Virus record (IMG/VR): IMGVR_UViG_3300047409_000298
Coordinates: 1 to 34,194 of that record
Reading direction: 5' to 3' (one strand)
Source: a virus
DNA: 34,194 bases
Shown here: positions 4,007 through 34,194 of the stretch, one piece after another
Layout: each line of letters begins with the position of its first letter
How positions within the stretch are numbered: the stretch's first letter is position 1
Made by a program: the position numbers and the translations under genes
The notes under the pieces: model-generated
Database searches by the model: none
What the model was told of the DNA's origin: nothing
Seen by the model: only the letters and a program-made list of their open reading frames with translations

Positions 4007-5197
4007 GTGGCTGACCCTGTCGTCAACTTCGGCTACACCACAGTTGCGGTAGCCCCCACGCCCGCGGACTCGGGGACGACCGTCGAGTTCGCCGACCCGG
4101 CGGTGCTGCCCGGAGACCCCGGCGACAGCGGCCCGTACAACCTCGTCATCTGGCCGGCGGATGTTGCGCTGGCGCTCGCGTCGAACGCGGAAATCATCCG
4201 GTGCGTCGCGCTCGCGGCCGGCGTGTTCACGATCGACCGTGAGCAGGAGGGCACGTCGCCCCGGACGATCGTGGTCGGCGACCAGGTAGCGCTCGCAGCC
4301 ACAGCGAAGACGTTCCATGATCTTCTCGCCGCCGCGCAGGCCGTCCCGGCTCTCTCAGCAATCTGGACTGGCGTTCAGATCGACGTGTTCGGCCAGATCA
4401 CCGGTTACGCCGGCGGAACTCCCATCCCAGGCGGCCAGATTCTCGTCGGGAGGAACTCCTCGGGCGCGTTGGAGTTGAGGCAGATTCCCGGGTGGACGTG
4501 GGACGACACCGGAGATGCCGGCTGGTCGGCTATCGCGGTCGGCGGGATCGCCCTGGTCAACGCCAAGTACATCGTCGGCGAAGACCTCGGCCTCGTCATC
4601 GGCACCGCGGGAGTCGTAAGCACCGCGGGTCACCCGATGACGGTCGAGGGTGGCGTCGCCGACCGGGCAGACCATGTCGGCGCAGACCTCCAGCTCGACG
4701 GCGGCCCGAGCCGCGGCAACCAGGTAGGGGGCGACATCGTGTTCCGCACCACCGGGGCCGGGTCGAGCGCGAGCATCGCCGCCGAGCAGATCAAGGCAGG
4801 CGGCACCGGGGCGAACGTCGAGATCAGCGGCACCCTCGCCCAGATCCCGTTCCTTCCGAGCCTCGCTCCTATCCAGGGGGCAGTCGATGAGGTTCCGCTC
4901 GTCACCGACGCCGCAGCGCAGGCGGTCACGTTCAACGTGGACGGCACCATCACCGGCGACACCGGCTCCGGTGGCACGAACACCTGGGACCCCACCACCG
5001 GCGCGTACAGCTTCAGCTTCGCCGGAGCCTCAACCGGCCCCGTAAACGCCGCCTACGTGATCGAAGGCAAGAACGCTTTCGTCGAGCAGGCACGGCTACG
5101 CGCCTCCGACGGAGCCCTACTCATGAAACCCCCCACCTCCGACCCCAGCATCCCCGGTGTGGTCTGGAACAACGCCGGCACCCTGGCGATCTCATGA
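4007..5197 (+). CDS. Structural protein, putative head fibre or tail-fibre-like
   Basis: This 396-residue protein begins with a domain seen in many actinobacteriophage virion proteins: [18 protein letters not shown] near the start, then [19 protein letters not shown] and [20 protein letters not shown]. The middle and C-terminus are Gly/Ala/Thr-rich beta repeats, as in fibre shafts and tips. The start is GTG 4007, two bases after the upstream stop; the open frame extends upstream but there reads an Arg-rich shadow. It ends with ATGA overlapping the next gene. Because it sits among head genes, a head fibre or head decoration is my preferred reading, with tail fibre as the alternative. Confidence 0.8.
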
Positions 5198-8834: not shown

Positions 8835-11800
8835 TTGGCTAAAGCACTCGAAGTTCTGATCATCGGCAAGGCCGAGAAGTACGTTGACTCGCTGAAGGAG
8901 TCGGAGCACGCGACCAGCAAGTTCGGCTCCGGCTTCAAGAAGATGGGGGTGGCTGCGGCGGCCGGTGGCGTGGCTGTAGCCGCTGTCGCCGTCGAGATCG
9001 GCAAGAAAACTCTCGAGGCTGCGATCTCGGCGCAGGAGGCAAACGACAAACTCACGCAGTCGTTCAAGAACCAGGGCCTCGCGATGAACGCCACCTCGCC
9101 GGCGGTGTTGAAACTCGAGCAGGCGTCGCGGGAGCTCGGCTTCTCGAACAACGACACCCGCGAGGGTCTGACCAAGCTAGTCAACTCGGGGAAGTCGTAC
9201 AAGGACAGCGTCAGCGAGATCACAGTGGCCCAGGATCTGGCCAGGGTGAAGGGCATATCGCTCGGCGACGCGACCTCTGGGCTGATCAAACTTCAGACTG
9301 GGGCGACCCGCGCCGCGAAGGAGTACGGCATCGTCCTGCCGCCCGTCACGACGGCGCAGGACAAGCTGAAGGCGTCGAAGGTGGATCTGACGACGCAGGC
9401 GGGGAAGGAGCTGCTCGCACACGCGAAAATCCAGGACAAGCTCGCGACCGGGCAGGCGTATTACGACGCCCTCTCCGGGAAGGTGAAAGACCAGGGCAAG
9501 GTGTTCTCCGAGTCGGCGGAAGGCGGGATGGCGAAGTTCCACGCGTCGCTCGGCAACATCGAGGAGACGATCGGCGCGAAGCTGCTGCCCTCGTTCTCCA
9601 CGGCCATCCAGGGCGTCGACAAGTTCCTGAACTTCGTGACGGGTGCGGGGAGCGCGTCGGACAAGTTCAAGACGGCGCTCGAGAAGATGGGGTTGAGCAG
9701 CACCCAGGCGGGCGAAGTGGTGAAGCGGGCCGGCGAGATTATCCACGAGACGATCGTGAAGATCAAGGAGATCGTGACAGGGACGCTCGACTTCCTCTCC
9801 GACTTCTGGAAGCGGTGGGGAGACACGATCAAACAGGTGGTCGGGATCGCATTCGACTTCATCAGCGGGACGATCCGTAACGCGTTCCAAGTGATCAAGG
9901 GCATCTTCGAGGTGTTCCACGGGCTGTTGACCGGCGACTGGTCGCAGCTCTGGAAGGGACTCAAGGACATCTTCGGAGGGATCTCGGCGCAGATCGTCAA
10001 CGTGGTGAAGACATGGTGGAGTCTGGTTGAGGTGGAGTTCCGGGTGGCGTGGAGCCTGCTCGAAAAACTCGCGTTGGATATTGCGGCGGCGATCGTTGAA
10101 CCGTTCTCTCATCTCCCCGGCAAACTCGGCCACTGGGCACGCGCAGCCAAGGACGGGATCCAGGAGGAGTTGAACAAGGTCAACGCGAAGACCGCCGCGG
10201 ACAAGATCATCGCCGACCTCAACACCGACCGCGTCCACAAAGCAGGAGTAAGCCTCGGCCGGTCGCTCATGTCCGGGCTCGCATCCGGTATCGGCAAGGA
10301 GGAAGGCGAAGCGATGGTCGCGAGCGCCCTCGCGATCGACAAGGTGATCGCGTCGGCTCACGCGGCAGCAGGGAAGCCGAACTCGCCCGCCCCTGCGACG
10401 ATCCCGCTCGGCAAGTCGCTGTTCGAGGGGGTCGCCGCGGGTATCGACAAGGGCGTGAGTGTGGCGATGGCGGCTGCGGCACGCGGCATGGACGCAACCG
10501 TGAAGACGCTGTCGTCGTCTGCTGTCAAGGCGCTCGGGAACGCCGGCTCGGCGATTATCGCTGCCGCGAAGAAAGTCGGCGTCGACGCACGGGCCGCGCT
10601 CGCCGTCGCGATGACCGAGGGCGGCACGTCGTTCGGCGCCGTCGGCGACAAGGGCACGTCGTTCGGGCCGTTCCAGCTCCACATCGGCGGCGCCAACCCC
10701 TACGGGGATCCGGCGAAGGCGGCGGCGTTCGCGAACTCGATCAAGGGGATCGCCTATGCGCTCCGGCTGATGTCCGAGGCCGGGGCTAAAGGCAAGTCCG
10801 GGTTCGACGCGATCAGCGAGATCGTTCGGAACTTCGAGAAGCCTGCCGACCCGTCCGGTGAGATCAGGAAGGCGATCGCGTACTACAAGACGCTTCCCGC
10901 GGAGATCGGCAAGGCGTCTGTGGATGCCGCGGTCATGACCGGCGCACAGGTTAAGGCGGCGGTGACGAAGGCCGGCGCTGACCTTGCGCGGGACACGGAG
11001 GCGCAGATCAAGGCGCAGCTGAAGAAGATCGGTGACGCCAAGGCGACGTTTTCTACCGCGTTCGGAGAGCTCGCCAACGCCGCTCTTGCCGCGTTCGACG
11101 CGAAGATGGCCGCGTGGAAGCCGCCGTCGGGAACGCTGCTCGACGCGTACAAGTTGCAGGATCAGATCACACAGTTGACCGCGGGTCTGGGCCCGGCGGT
11201 GACGACTGCGCAGTCCCGTCTCGCTGCGGCGTTCTCGAGCGGGAACAAGGAGGCGATCGACCAGGCGCAGAACGACCTGAACGCGGCGCTGACGAACTCG
11301 TACAACGCGGTCGACTTCAACACGACGAACATGCTGAACGCCGCCCAGGCGACGCTGGCGCAGGCGCAGGCGGAAGGCGACCCCGACAAGATCGCGACAG
11401 CGCAGGCCGCGTACGACCAGGCGCTAACCGACCGGACGGCAGCTCTCAACCAGAACCAGATCGACCAGCGGGCGCTGATCGAGCAGAACCTCCAATGGCG
11501 GGCTGACGCGGAGCAGCGCACCCATGACGCGATCGCCGCGAAGCAACGCGAAGGGTTGGCGAAGCAGCTAGCCCAACTCCAGACGTGGCTGTTGAAGCAT
11601 CCGGCGGAGTGGGCGAAGATGGCCGGGAAGGTTCAGGGCGTCCTCGGCAAGTACAACATCCAACTTCAAGACGCGGGGCACGCGTGGGCGGACAAGTTCG
11701 CAGCCGGCGTCACAGCCGGCATCCCCGCCGCCGTGAAAGCCGCCCACGCTCTCGCTGCCGCCGTCGCCGCCGTCCTGCCATCGAAGAAGTCTCCGCTCCG

Positions 11801-12083
11801 GCCCGCCAAGGAAGGACCGCTTGCGTTCCACCCCTACGAGATGGGGAAGGAATGGGCGAGCAGCCTCGGCTCCGGGCTCGCCGCCGGCGGCATCCAAGGA
11901 GCGATGGGAACGATGGCAGCCCGGCCCACCGCCGCCCTCGGCACATCCGGCGGCGGCGGCACCACCACCGTCCACGTCCACGTCGCCGGCACCGTCGTCT
12001 CCGAGAACCAGCTCGTCGAGGCGGTCTACCGTGGCCTGGTTCGTAAGTCTCGTCGGAACGCCGGCAACCTCGGGCTCGCCTGA
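8835..12083 (+). CDS. Tape measure protein with embedded lysozyme-like domain
   Basis: At 1082 residues this is the longest gene. It sets tail length and is ejected ahead of the DNA. The N-terminus is alpha-helical with an Ala/Val-rich hydrophobic stretch at about 38-52. A further hydrophobic/amphipathic region lies near 310-420. A transglycosylase-like module follows near 580-695, with a likely catalytic Glu in AMTEGG (E595) and the GPFQLHIGG substrate-site motif. Ala/Gln-rich coiled coil covers about 700-930. The start is TTG 8835, three bases after the gpT stop, with AAGGGA upstream. The wall-cutting domain probably helps local peptidoglycan opening during infection. The end overlaps the next ATG by one base. 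Confidence 0.93.
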   Translation: MAKALEVLIIGKAEKYVDSLKESEHATSKFGSGFKKMGVAAAAGGVAVAAVAVEIGKKTLEAAISAQEANDKLTQSFKNQGLAMNATSPAVLKLEQASRELGFSNNDTREGLTKLVNSGKSYKDSVSEITVAQDLARVKGISLGDATSGLIKLQTGATRAAKEYGIVLPPVTTAQDKLKASKVDLTTQAGKELLAHAKIQDKLATGQAYYDALSGKVKDQGKVFSESAEGGMAKFHASLGNIEETIGAKLLPSFSTAIQGVDKFLNFVTGAGSASDKFKTALEKMGLSSTQAGEVVKRAGEIIHETIVKIKEIVTGTLDFLSDFWKRWGDTIKQVVGIAFDFISGTIRNAFQVIKGIFEVFHGLLTGDWSQLWKGLKDIFGGISAQIVNVVKTWWSLVEVEFRVAWSLLEKLALDIAAAIVEPFSHLPGKLGHWARAAKDGIQEELNKVNAKTAADKIIADLNTDRVHKAGVSLGRSLMSGLASGIGKEEGEAMVASALAIDKVIASAHAAAGKPNSPAPATIPLGKSLFEGVAAGIDKGVSVAMAAAARGMDATVKTLSSSAVKALGNAGSAIIAAAKKVGVDARAALAVAMTEGGTSFGAVGDKGTSFGPFQLHIGGANPYGDPAKAAAFANSIKGIAYALRLMSEAGAKGKSGFDAISEIVRNFEKPADPSGEIRKAIAYYKTLPAEIGKASVDAAVMTGAQVKAAVTKAGADLARDTEAQIKAQLKKIGDAKATFSTAFGELANAALAAFDAKMAAWKPPSGTLLDAYKLQDQITQLTAGLGPAVTTAQSRLAAAFSSGNKEAIDQAQNDLNAALTNSYNAVDFNTTNMLNAAQATLAQAQAEGDPDKIATAQAAYDQALTDRTAALNQNQIDQRALIEQNLQWRADAEQRTHDAIAAKQREGLAKQLAQLQTWLLKHPAEWAKMAGKVQGVLGKYNIQLQDAGHAWADKFAAGVTAGIPAAVKAAHALAAAVAAVLPSKKSPLRPAKEGPLAFHPYEMGKEWASSLGSGLAAGGIQGAMGTMAARPTAALGTSGGGGTTTVHVHVAGTVVSENQLVEAVYRGLVRKSRRNAGNLGLA

Positions 12084-12460
12084 TGACGATTAGTGACTTC
12101 GCCGAGGCGAAGATCCTCGACGCGGTGTTTCGGAACGTCAGCCTCGCCGTCGCTGCGAACTACGTGAAGCTCCATATCGGCGACCCGGGGGAGGCTGGGA
12201 CGGCGAACGCGTCGGCGAGCACGACTCGGAAGGTGGCGTCGTGGGCTGCCGCCTCGAGCGGGTCGATCGCGACGAACGCGGCGCTGACGTGGAGCGGTGC
12301 CGACCTCACGGCGGTTGAGACGCTGACGCATATCAGCGTCTGGGACGCTTCCACGGCCGGCAACCATCTCTGGAACGGCCCGCTCGACATCCCCTACAAC
12401 GTCGCTATCGGCGACACGTTGACCATCCCGTCGGGGCTTATCGTCTGCTCGCTCGACTAG
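12083..12460 (+). CDS. Minor tail / fibre-type structural protein (125 aa)
   Basis: The product has the pattern of a small phage tail protein family: FAEAKILDAVFRN, YVKLHIGDPGEAGT, TRKVASWAAASSGS, and the ending TLTHISVWDASTAGNHLW. ATG 12083 overlaps the tape measure stop (TGATG). It is probably part of the tail tip. It is followed with no gap by the minor tail protein gene. Confidence 0.8.
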   Translation: MTISDFAEAKILDAVFRNVSLAVAANYVKLHIGDPGEAGTANASASTTRKVASWAAASSGSIATNAALTWSGADLTAVETLTHISVWDASTAGNHLWNGPLDIPYNVAIGDTLTIPSGLIVCSLD

Positions 12461-13822
12461 ATGGCTGTCACCGAGATCCAGTCCGGCAACAACTCTGGGT
12501 CGAGCACGAGCGCGTCTCTGACGTTGGCGGCCGCGCCGACAGTGGGGAACCTGCTCGTCGTGTACGTCGGCTGCACCATCGTGGCCGGTGACGTAACGAT
12601 CACGATGCCGGTGGGGTGGACGCAACTCCAGACCAAGGTGACCGCCACCAAGGTCAGACAGACGTCGTTCTACAAGAACGCCGGGGCGAGCGAATCCGCG
12701 ACGATCACCGCCACTTTGACCGCGGCCCGCGCCTGGTCTGTCTGCGTCGTTGAAGCCCACTCCACGAGCGCCGGCGGCTGGACCGTCGACAAGCAGGCGA
12801 GCAACAACGGGTCGAGCACGTCGCCGTCGTCGGGCACGACCGCAACAACAACGCAGGCGGAGGAATACTGGACGGCCGGGTTCACGAGCGCCATCAACCA
12901 GAACCTGACATCGCCGACCAACTCGTTCACGGTCAAGGAACAGAAACTGTGGGGGAGCGGCGGCCTCGCGATGCTAACCCGGATTGTGGCCGCGACCGCG
13001 ACCGCTTCGACCGGAGGCACTTACGCGAGTTCGGCGGTCTGGGTTGGGACGGTCGACACGTTCAAGGCCGCTGCGGCAACGATCACCGTCGGGGGCGCGG
13101 CCCTCTCCGGCCGCGGCACCCTACGAGCCCGCGCGAACTACGCCACACCGACCCTGTCCGTCCTCGCCGCGTTCGGCTACACCCCCACCTCTCCGGTCCC
13201 CGTCTGGACGGACATCTCCAGCTACGGCCGAACGTTCACATGGCAGCGCGGCAAACAGAACGAGCTCAACCAGCTCCAGGCCGGTACCGCGTCGCTCACC
13301 CTGAAAGACCCCCTGTCCTACTTCGACCCGTCGAACACCGCGTCGCCGTTCTATCCCAACGTCAAACCGGGGCTGCCGATCCGCGCGGTGTTGCTCGTCG
13401 GCTCCACCATGTACCCGCTCTTCTACGGGTTCGCCGAACGGCTGCCGCGCACCGCACGCGTCTCGAGCGTCTACACCGAACGGCAGATCGACCTCACCGA
13501 CGGGTTCGCGCTCCTCGCCTACGCCGGGTTGGGTGGCGCCAGTTTCCCGCAGCAGACCTCTGACCAGCGTGTCTCGGCCGTCCTCGACTACATCGGCTGG
13601 CCGACGCTGCAACGGGTGATCGGCACCGGCTCCGAAACGCTCCAGGATGTTGCGTTCCCCGCCGAGGACACCACCACCGCCCAGGCGCACCTCCAGGCAG
13701 TTGCCGACTCCGAAGACGGGTTGCTGTACGTCGACGGCGCGAACAACGTGGTGTTCGTCGGCCGCGCCGCCCTCGCCGCCCCCCCGTACACCGTGTCCAC
13801 CGTGACCTACTCGGACGTCTGA
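12461..13822 (+). CDS. Minor tail protein, N-terminal half of a split tail-tip protein
   Basis: Residues 1-200 form a Ser/Thr-rich beta-sandwich (APTVGNLLVVYVG, VGWTQLQTK), possibly carbohydrate-binding. From about 240 the sequence is a recognised actinophage minor tail domain: WTDISSYGRTFTWQRGKQNE, GTASLTLKDP, and a segment ending in PNVKPGLPIRAVL, then LYVDGANNVVFVGR. The protein stops at 453 (YTVSTVTYSDV), where related single-chain proteins would continue into a TSLVPSYDL-like segment. That missing segment appears at the end of the next gene. ATG 12461 follows the upstream stop directly. It probably forms the tail tip hub. Confidence 0.83.
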   Translation: MAVTEIQSGNNSGSSTSASLTLAAAPTVGNLLVVYVGCTIVAGDVTITMPVGWTQLQTKVTATKVRQTSFYKNAGASESATITATLTAARAWSVCVVEAHSTSAGGWTVDKQASNNGSSTSPSSGTTATTTQAEEYWTAGFTSAINQNLTSPTNSFTVKEQKLWGSGGLAMLTRIVAATATASTGGTYASSAVWVGTVDTFKAAAATITVGGAALSGRGTLRARANYATPTLSVLAAFGYTPTSPVPVWTDISSYGRTFTWQRGKQNELNQLQAGTASLTLKDPLSYFDPSNTASPFYPNVKPGLPIRAVLLVGSTMYPLFYGFAERLPRTARVSSVYTERQIDLTDGFALLAYAGLGGASFPQQTSDQRVSAVLDYIGWPTLQRVIGTGSETLQDVAFPAEDTTTAQAHLQAVADSEDGLLYVDGANNVVFVGRAALAAPPYTVSTVTYSDV

Positions 13823-15240
13823 TGGCTGGTATCGACGCCAACACCGTCCTCTGCCTCCACTGCGACGGCACGGACGCCTCCACCACGTTCACCGACTCGG
13901 CGCTGACACCGCACACCGTCACCGCGAACGGCGACGCCCAGGTCGACACCGCCCAGTCGGTGTTCGGCGGCGCGTCCGCGCTGTTCGACGGCACCGGCGA
14001 CTACCTCTCAACCCCCGACTCGGCCGACTGGGCGTTCGGCTCCGGCGACTTCACCATCGACCTACGTGTGCGGTTCAACTCGATCGGCTCCGAACGCGGG
14101 TTCGTCAGCCAATACGACGTAGCCGGATCCCAGAAGTCGTTCCGGTTTGAATACAACCCGTTCGTCGCTGGGCTGTTGATCCAGTTGAGCGCGGACGGGT
14201 CAACCCACGCCCTCGACTACCGGCCCGCCTGGTCACCGTCCACGAACACCTGGTACCACGTCGCCCTCGTCAGGAACGGCACCACCATCCACGCCTACAT
14301 CAACGGGACAGAAATCGGTGCGGGCGGCTCCATCGGAGCGTCATCCCTGTTCAACTCCACCCACGCACTACAGGTCGGGATAACCGATTCGGCGAGCTCG
14401 CAGAGCCCAATGAACGGCTGGCTCGACGAAATCCGCGTCTCCAAAGGCATCGCACGGTGGACGAGCAACTTCACCCCACCAGCAGCCGCCTACACCGTCG
14501 ACGCGCCAACCAACAGCGTCGCCCCCGTCGCATCCGGCACCCCCACGGTCGGCCAAACACTCACCACCACGGACGGCACCTGGACGGGCGGCCCGTCGTT
14601 CACCTACCAGTGGCAGCGGGACAACACCGGCGGCGGCAGCTACTCCAACATCGGCAGCGCCACCGCGTCCACCTATGTTCTCGTCAGCGGCGACGCCGGC
14701 TGCAACGTCCGCTGCGTCGTCACCGCAACCAACGCAGGCGGATCCGCCTCAGCGAACTCGAACGCGCTCGGCCTGGTCGCCGCCGGTGCGGCCACGTTCA
14801 CCTACACCAGCCTCGTCCCCTCCTACGACCTCGACAACGTCTTCAACAGGTGGACCGTCACCCGCGACAACGGCAGCCCCCAAACCAGCGAAGACACCAC
14901 CTCCCAAACCAAGTACTTCCTCCGGGCAAAACAAACCCAGACGCTCGTCTCCGACGACACCGCCGCCCTCGCCCAAGCCGCACGGAAGATCGCCAAGTTC
15001 AAAGACCCGCTGAACCGGGTCGAGTCGGTGACGATCATGCCGCTCCAATCCCTGACGAACACCGCCCAGATCGACGCCGGGTTCGCACGCCAACTCGGCG
15101 ACCGCATCACCATCAAAGAAACCCCCCCAGGGTTCGCGGGCGTCCAGACGAACGACTACGTCATCCAGCAGATCAGCGGCCAGGTCAACACCGGGCCGAT
15201 CACGTCGGCGACGCTGACGTTCAGCGTCTGGCCCCCCTAA
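13822..15240 (+). CDS. Minor tail protein with LamG and Ig-like domains plus the C-terminal half of the split tail protein
   Basis: Residues 1-225 are a LamG/concanavalin-like lectin domain (VLCLHCDGTDASTTFTDSA, WAFGSGDFTIDLRVRF, WLDEIRVSKGIARW). Residues about 230-315 are an Ig-like repeat (GTPTVGQTLTTTDGTWTGGP, FTYQWQRDNTGGGSYSNIG). From about 325 comes the missing tail domain half: FTYTSLVPSYDLDNVFNRWT, KFKDPLNRVESVTIMPL, and a C-terminus ending in SATLTFSVWPP. ATG 13822 overlaps the upstream stop (TGATG). The LamG/Ig part probably binds host surface sugar. The break falls inside one conserved domain, so the two proteins presumably assemble together. Confidence 0.83.
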   Translation: MAGIDANTVLCLHCDGTDASTTFTDSALTPHTVTANGDAQVDTAQSVFGGASALFDGTGDYLSTPDSADWAFGSGDFTIDLRVRFNSIGSERGFVSQYDVAGSQKSFRFEYNPFVAGLLIQLSADGSTHALDYRPAWSPSTNTWYHVALVRNGTTIHAYINGTEIGAGGSIGASSLFNSTHALQVGITDSASSQSPMNGWLDEIRVSKGIARWTSNFTPPAAAYTVDAPTNSVAPVASGTPTVGQTLTTTDGTWTGGPSFTYQWQRDNTGGGSYSNIGSATASTYVLVSGDAGCNVRCVVTATNAGGSASANSNALGLVAAGAATFTYTSLVPSYDLDNVFNRWTVTRDNGSPQTSEDTTSQTKYFLRAKQTQTLVSDDTAALAQAARKIAKFKDPLNRVESVTIMPLQSLTNTAQIDAGFARQLGDRITIKETPPGFAGVQTNDYVIQQISGQVNTGPITSATLTFSVWPP

Positions 15241-33376: not shown

Positions 33377-34194
33377 GGCTGAACCCGTTCCGTGGCAAGT
33401 CCGAGAGCCGGAGCGATCCGGCTCTTTCACTTCAGCAGTACGTTCAGATGCTGTCGTCGTTCAGCTTCAACGGCGTCAGTTACACGCTGCCGGGATCGGA
33501 GGGGGAAGAAATCCGCGACTTCTCGAGCCTCATCCGCGGCGCGTACAAGGCGTCGGCGGTTGTGTTCGCGTGCATGGACGTCCGGGCGAAGCTGTTTTCG
33601 GAGGCGCGGTTCCAGTACCGGCGGTACACGAAGGGGCGTCCGGGGCAACTGTTCGGCGACCCGAGCCTCGCGATCCTTGAAACGCCGTGGCCTGGTGGCA
33701 CGACCGGCGACCTGCTCGCGAAGATGCTCCAGTGGGCTGACCTGGCCGGGAACGCGTTCGCGGTCCGCCGGCCGCACGGCGTAGGCCTCCTCCGACCCGA
33801 CTGGGTCGACATCGTGTCCGGCAGCCCGAACGAGGACGCCGACGCATGGGACGTCGACGCCCAGGTCATCGGCTACCTGTTCTACCCCGGCGGCCGCCAC
33901 TCCGGCCGGGACGTCCAGTCGTTTCTGCCGGAGGAGGTGGCGCACTTCGCGCCGATCCCCGACCCCGAAGCCAGGTTCCGCGGCATGAGCTGGCTGACGC
34001 CGGTGATCCGCGAGGTGATGGCCGACAAGGCCGCCACCGACTTCAAAGGCAGGTTTTTCGAGAACGGGGCGACGCCGAACATGGTCGTCAAGTTCGACCT
34101 CGACTCGGTCGAGAAGATGCGCCCCTGGATCGACCTGTTCCGCGAAGGCCACGAAGGGTCGATGAACGCGTACAAAACGCTGTTCATCGGCGCC
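33373..34194 (+). CDS. Portal protein, N-terminal part (continues at 1-667)
   Basis: GTG 33373 overlaps the upstream stop and has AGGAAG just before it; an in-frame ATG at 33355 is the alternative. The visible 274 codons show portal hallmarks: ASAVVFACMDVRAKLFSEAR, LLAKMLQWADLAGNAFAVRR, VAHFAPIPDPEARFRGMSWL, FKGRFFENGATPNMVV. The gene runs off the end of the window and continues at position 1 through the 127-base overlap, giving 453 residues in total. The last 127 bases of this entry duplicate 1-127. Confidence 0.93.
   Translation, partial: MRLNPFRGKSESRSDPALSLQQYVQMLSSFSFNGVSYTLPGSEGEEIRDFSSLIRGAYKASAVVFACMDVRAKLFSEARFQYRRYTKGRPGQLFGDPSLAILETPWPGGTTGDLLAKMLQWADLAGNAFAVRRPHGVGLLRPDWVDIVSGSPNEDADAWDVDAQVIGYLFYPGGRHSGRDVQSFLPEEVAHFAPIPDPEARFRGMSWLTPVIREVMADKAATDFKGRFFENGATPNMVVKFDLDSVEKMRPWIDLFREGHEGSMNAYKTLFIGA
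34068..34194. repeat. Terminal direct repeat, right copy (assembly overlap)
   Basis: Identical to positions 1-127 and inside the portal gene; see the left copy. It marks the circular closure of the contig. Confidence 0.95.

Follow-up and report, generated by a model that had tools for sequence, protein, structure and literature searches.

A gp27-like tail hub probably divided between two genes at a linker that carries a LamG/Ig-like cassette

The gp27-like hub that caps the phage tail tube is normally made of one chain. The locus described here raises the question of whether two consecutive genes, A and B, encode the two halves of a single such hub, and of what the lectin-like domain at their junction is doing there. 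The window, i.e., the whole stretch of viral DNA analysed, comprises the 34,194 nucleotides of IMG/VR record IMGVR_UViG_3300047409_000298 (Table 1). An exact terminal repeat of 127 bases (1-127 and 34068-34194), located inside the portal gene, indicates that the record closes as a circle of ca. 34,067 bases; it is probably complete, though the collection seems to list no completeness estimate for it. Upstream of genes A (453 aa) and B (472 aa) are the tape measure gene and then one small Gp80-like gene, a position shortly after the tape measure that is typical of hubs. The tape measure protein also contains a lysozyme/transglycosylase-like stretch (ALAVAMTEGGTSFGAVGDKGTSFGPFQLHIGGANPYGDP, encoded at about 10500-11000), without Pfam match, that is kept in the related contig L002.

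Table 1. Features of the hub locus and its surroundings (window coordinates)
Feature	Position	Strand	Evidence
Tape measure protein gene	8835..12083	+	phrog_305, E 1.2e-18
Gp80-like small fibre/decoration gene, separating the tape measure gene from that of chain A	12083..12460	+	PF23140, E 1.2e-28
Hub chain A, N-terminal extra domain (~residues 1-215), then first part of hub	12461..13822	+	
TGATG stop/start overlap of chains A and B	13820..13824	+	sequence
Hub chain B	13822..15240	+	ORF; kept in L002 and L003
LamG (concanavalin A-like) domain of the cassette in chain B	13834..14493	+	PF13385, E 4.7e-17, residues 56-208
Ig-like repeat of chain B cassette	14494..14781	+	IG_AIR9, E 8.8e-4, under Pfam cutoff
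C-terminal hub piece of chain B (second ring-forming domain, by homology)	14800..15234	+	profile E 2.8e-7; hhalign E 4.6e-15

Chain A begins with an extra domain of ca. 215 residues before the hub (12461-13105). Hub domain I (13139-13438, E 1.4e-30) and the part preceding the junction (13535-13798, E 1.4e-25) were recognized with HMMs that include the window itself, and a PHROGs scan, which is independent of those HMMs, related chain A to phrog_5313 (E 1.4e-14). The tail of chain B did not reach E 1 against this family in the same scan. Chain B consists of the LamG domain, located right at the junction, the Ig-like repeat and the C-terminal piece, for which there was no Pfam match. A preliminary description of this locus had proposed a LamG plus Ig cassette; the LamG part is well supported, but the Ig-like repeat reaches only 19.5 bits with IG_AIR9 (curated cutoff 27.5). 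The LamG of the window is about 50% identical to the internal LamG of Rhizobium phage proteins and, to judge from such sequence likeness, this type of cassette is widespread.

In order to see where the hub resumes after the cassette, we have used a profile built from ten single-chain relatives, none of them from the window. The match of chain A to it, weak by itself in the pre-junction part (E 0.034), stops near profile position 78, followed by 14 trailing residues, and chain B takes it up again at position 93 with its residues 327-457 (E 2.8e-7), in good agreement with the continuation at about residue 325 proposed before. A different split protein, ORF21/ORF22 of the Thermobifida phage P1312, divides this profile exactly, ORF21 up to position 81 and ORF22 from 81. 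As a template for hhalign we took an alignment of five unsplit hubs from actinobacterial prophages and the Microcystis phage Mae-JY09, whose hub has both parts within one ORF of 432 aa. Chain A aligned to template columns 228-418 (E 2.6e-25) and the tail of B to columns 424-552 (E 4.6e-15). Since A stops at column 418 and the tail of B starts at 424, the two together correspond to one interrupted protein, with the break falling in a single linker. The unsplit prophage hub L049 of this alignment reads GELYVDGGGRVVFRGRAAATSEDRSRLAQAVFSD-GDDGLTYHNLAISADHETMFNRVRITRVGGSEQNALDSVS; visual inspection places the end of A at GLLYVDGANNVVFVGRAALAAPPYTVSTVTYSDV and the resumption in B at TFTYTSLVPSYDLDNVFNRWTVTRDNGSPQTSEDTTS. 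The cassette, suggested earlier to have entered one loop of a tail-tip domain, sits exactly at this interdomain linker, where the second chain begins. We consider it quite probable that one gp27-like tail hub is encoded in two halves by genes A and B, with the LamG/Ig cassette in the linker.

The halves are not independent proteins in all homologues, as unsplit ones were found. The single-chain relatives invoked in the preliminary description do exist, but only among the more distant homologues, and every close relative is also split. A sequence search among viral contigs yielded no unsplit close relatives, only two other IMG/VR contigs with the same break (L002 and L003) together with distant or partial matches. 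In the window, the reading frames, the coordinates and the TGATG overlap are as first described. The upstream gene ends at TVTYSDV, its TGA stop occupies 13820-13822, the ATG of B 13822-13824, and B lies in the -1 frame relative to A. The junction is TAA/ATG in L002 and TAG/ATG in L003, with B in the frame of A in both. Thus all three genomes encode A and B as separate ORFs, and not as the single continuous polypeptide of gp27-like hubs. Identity between these relatives is 81-85% for the tail of B and 64-68% for A.

Since the break is kept in three genomes while stops and frames differ, the split is not a sequencing error. More generally, an error of sequencing or assembly, or a decaying gene, is extremely improbable as an explanation: the break recurs in three independent contigs whose halves are full-length and conserved (64-85% identity), and a break of a second type, described below, is also kept in three prophage lineages besides P1312. 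The atypical L085 may be such a case. Here (reverse strand, 1191-1929) the frames of the two hub halves overlap and no cassette is present. This locus, which is probably due to a frameshift in a prophage hub or to an error in the sequence, was excluded from the count of splits. The abutting or overlapping arrangement of A and B in the three genomes, with a single in-frame stop between them in L002 and L003, could also be read as programmed -1 frameshifting or stop readthrough, by which a one-chain hub would be made and the amount of cassette regulated. We regard this as very unlikely: stop codon and frame relation vary (TGA in -1 against TAA and TAG in frame) while the break persists, so that no linkage of either kind is conserved; no slippery heptamer was seen by eye at the window junction; and in the prophages L059 and L096 a whole gene separates the halves, which are therefore translated separately.

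The latter prophages came from a survey with a C-terminal hub profile that took in viral contigs, phage records and, as three overlapping samples, about 1,090 genome slots of actinobacteria, in which we asked whether the first hub half was in the same ORF as the C-terminal match. Single-chain proteins made up 74 of the 83 non-redundant sequences in the resulting tree. The pre-junction part was called in the same ORF in 73 of them, 9-84 nt upstream in 72 and 216 nt upstream in the other, the latter distance coming from a partial match; no insert of the size of a domain was seen in this linker among the 74. The same linker is broken, with a PhoD cassette, in P1312 and the near-identical contigs L025-L027 and in the prophage lineages L093, L094 and L095, the PhoD assignment of L094 and L095 being by sequence likeness to P1312. 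In these PhoD-type splits the chains overlap by GTGA or ATGA, and the split point of the P1312 type is about ten residues upstream of that in the window. In L059 and L096 the gene after chain A is a complete Gp80-like one (PF23140, 1.1e-11, tested on L059, where it lies on the reverse strand at about 4768-5117), and the second chain, which comes next, has a peptidoglycan-binding domain ahead of the C-terminal part of the hub. A homologue of this Gp80-like gene is the one directly upstream of half A in the window. L098-L100, with partial or isolated C-terminal matches, were excluded from the count.

The tree, made from the C-terminal domain with only 160 columns and with a long branch leading to the window group, sets this LamG group apart from the PhoD group, and L059 and L096 group with three PhoD members. 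Parsimony gives three changes, and the starred branches force two. The tree thus needs at least two separate origins of the split, as far as these sequences tell, and the splits of L059/L096 and of the PhoD members may go back to one common event. On balance we favour the view that the linker before the last hub domain is a recurrent fission point, with at least two, perhaps three, lineages having an obligate two-chain hub, and with LamG/Ig, a PhoD phosphatase or a peptidoglycan-binding array as cassettes at the N terminus of the second chain.

The fact that the halves can stand apart with a gene between them, as in L059 and L096, and that the PhoD and LamG cassettes look like stand-alone host-contact proteins would also fit B being an independent tail fibre or spike, with its hub-like tail a mere anchor and A alone forming a reduced hub. 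This is unlikely, as the tail of B is the most conserved part between the relatives, well above A, as would suit a core structural part, and the split loci searched contained no second C-terminal hub half.

The fold of these proteins can be glimpsed through L028, a single-chain relative whose AF2 model has a pLDDT of 72.6 and a pTM of 0.62. Residues 1-594 of the model matched Mu gp44 (Z 16.1), T4 gp27 (Z 15.0), MuSo2 (Z 16.8) and HFTV1 (Z 16.8), and scores against gp27-like/VgrG hubs, including 3cdd, were between 15 and 18 overall, all for L028 and not for the window proteins. L028 has a LamG of its own as a separate insert at residues 138-359. The model of window chain A, from an alignment of four sequences, was too poor to use (pLDDT 44) and its Foldseek matches are not meaningful. 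In gp27-like hubs the pseudo-hexameric ring is made by subdomains 1 and 4 (PMC9437275), and by this correspondence chain B would supply the last ring-forming domain.

For a hub made of A and B, we envisage that the linker separating the middle domain from the final ring-forming domain was invaded by a LamG plus Ig-like cassette, which supplied a start codon, and that the upstream half gained a stop. Translation of A would end at the TGATG and begin anew there on B (termination-reinitiation), giving similar amounts of both. The N-terminal LamG/Ig of B would project sideways from the linker and, by analogy with the evolved Tal and Dit proteins (PMC7291167), the LamG may bind the receptor by contacting a surface glycan. 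A and the tail of B would fold together without a peptide bond, and the assembled hub would be a trimer of three A and three B, two chains per subunit.

The hub, which closes the tail tube, is strongly constrained in its structure. The repeated, cassette-coupled fission at one linker shows where the hub tolerates a break and how phages gain host-contact modules, and such parts seem to be added at this linker repeatedly. If this is true, splitting would let the tail tip display a large domain without threading it through the hub fold. There is also a consequence for annotation: where a gene labelled phosphodiesterase, LamG or hypothetical lies beside a hub-like protein, it can encode the half that the hub lacks.

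Among known systems, the gp27-like hubs or Tal proteins (T4 gp27, Mu gp44, the 43-kDa tail protein of MuSo2) are matched by the predicted fold of single-chain relatives homologous to A plus the tail of B, but they are one chain whereas the window encodes two. A full-text search of open-licence papers found no hub described as split inside the gp27-like fold. The P1312 cassette is a PhoD-like phosphatase instead of LamG/Ig-like, but the order is the same, ORF22 (L015:7329-10619, annotated as phosphodiesterase) having the cassette first and the C-terminal half of the hub last. ORF21 has an N-terminal extension placed similarly to that of chain A. The authors of P1312 reported that gp38 of phiSASD1 resembles ORF21 in its first part and ORF22 in its last, and read ORF22 as a secreted phosphodiesterase, not half a hub (PMC4569894). 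Their LC-MS/MS of the virion lists coverage for neither protein (PMC4569894), so these data are neutral on co-assembly. In evolved Tal and Dit proteins, gp27-like or galectin loops accommodate inserted domains of carbohydrate-binding or lysin type (PMC7291167, PMC9437275). The window follows the same idea, a carbohydrate-binding-type domain decorating a hub loop, but with gene fission: the insertions of evolved Tal and Dit remain in one chain, whereas here a stop codon and a new start coincide with the insertion and the cassette becomes the N terminus of chain two. Finally, the minor tail proteins of phrog_5313 (Streptomyces phages, Micromonospora pMLP1) belong to the same hub family and are single-chain; many have a LamG-like domain, but it is placed in a different loop, the one joining hub domain I to the middle domain, and the chain is unbroken. 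That the sampled single-chain relatives carry LamG in this other loop and leave the linker without a domain-sized insert suggests a testable rule.
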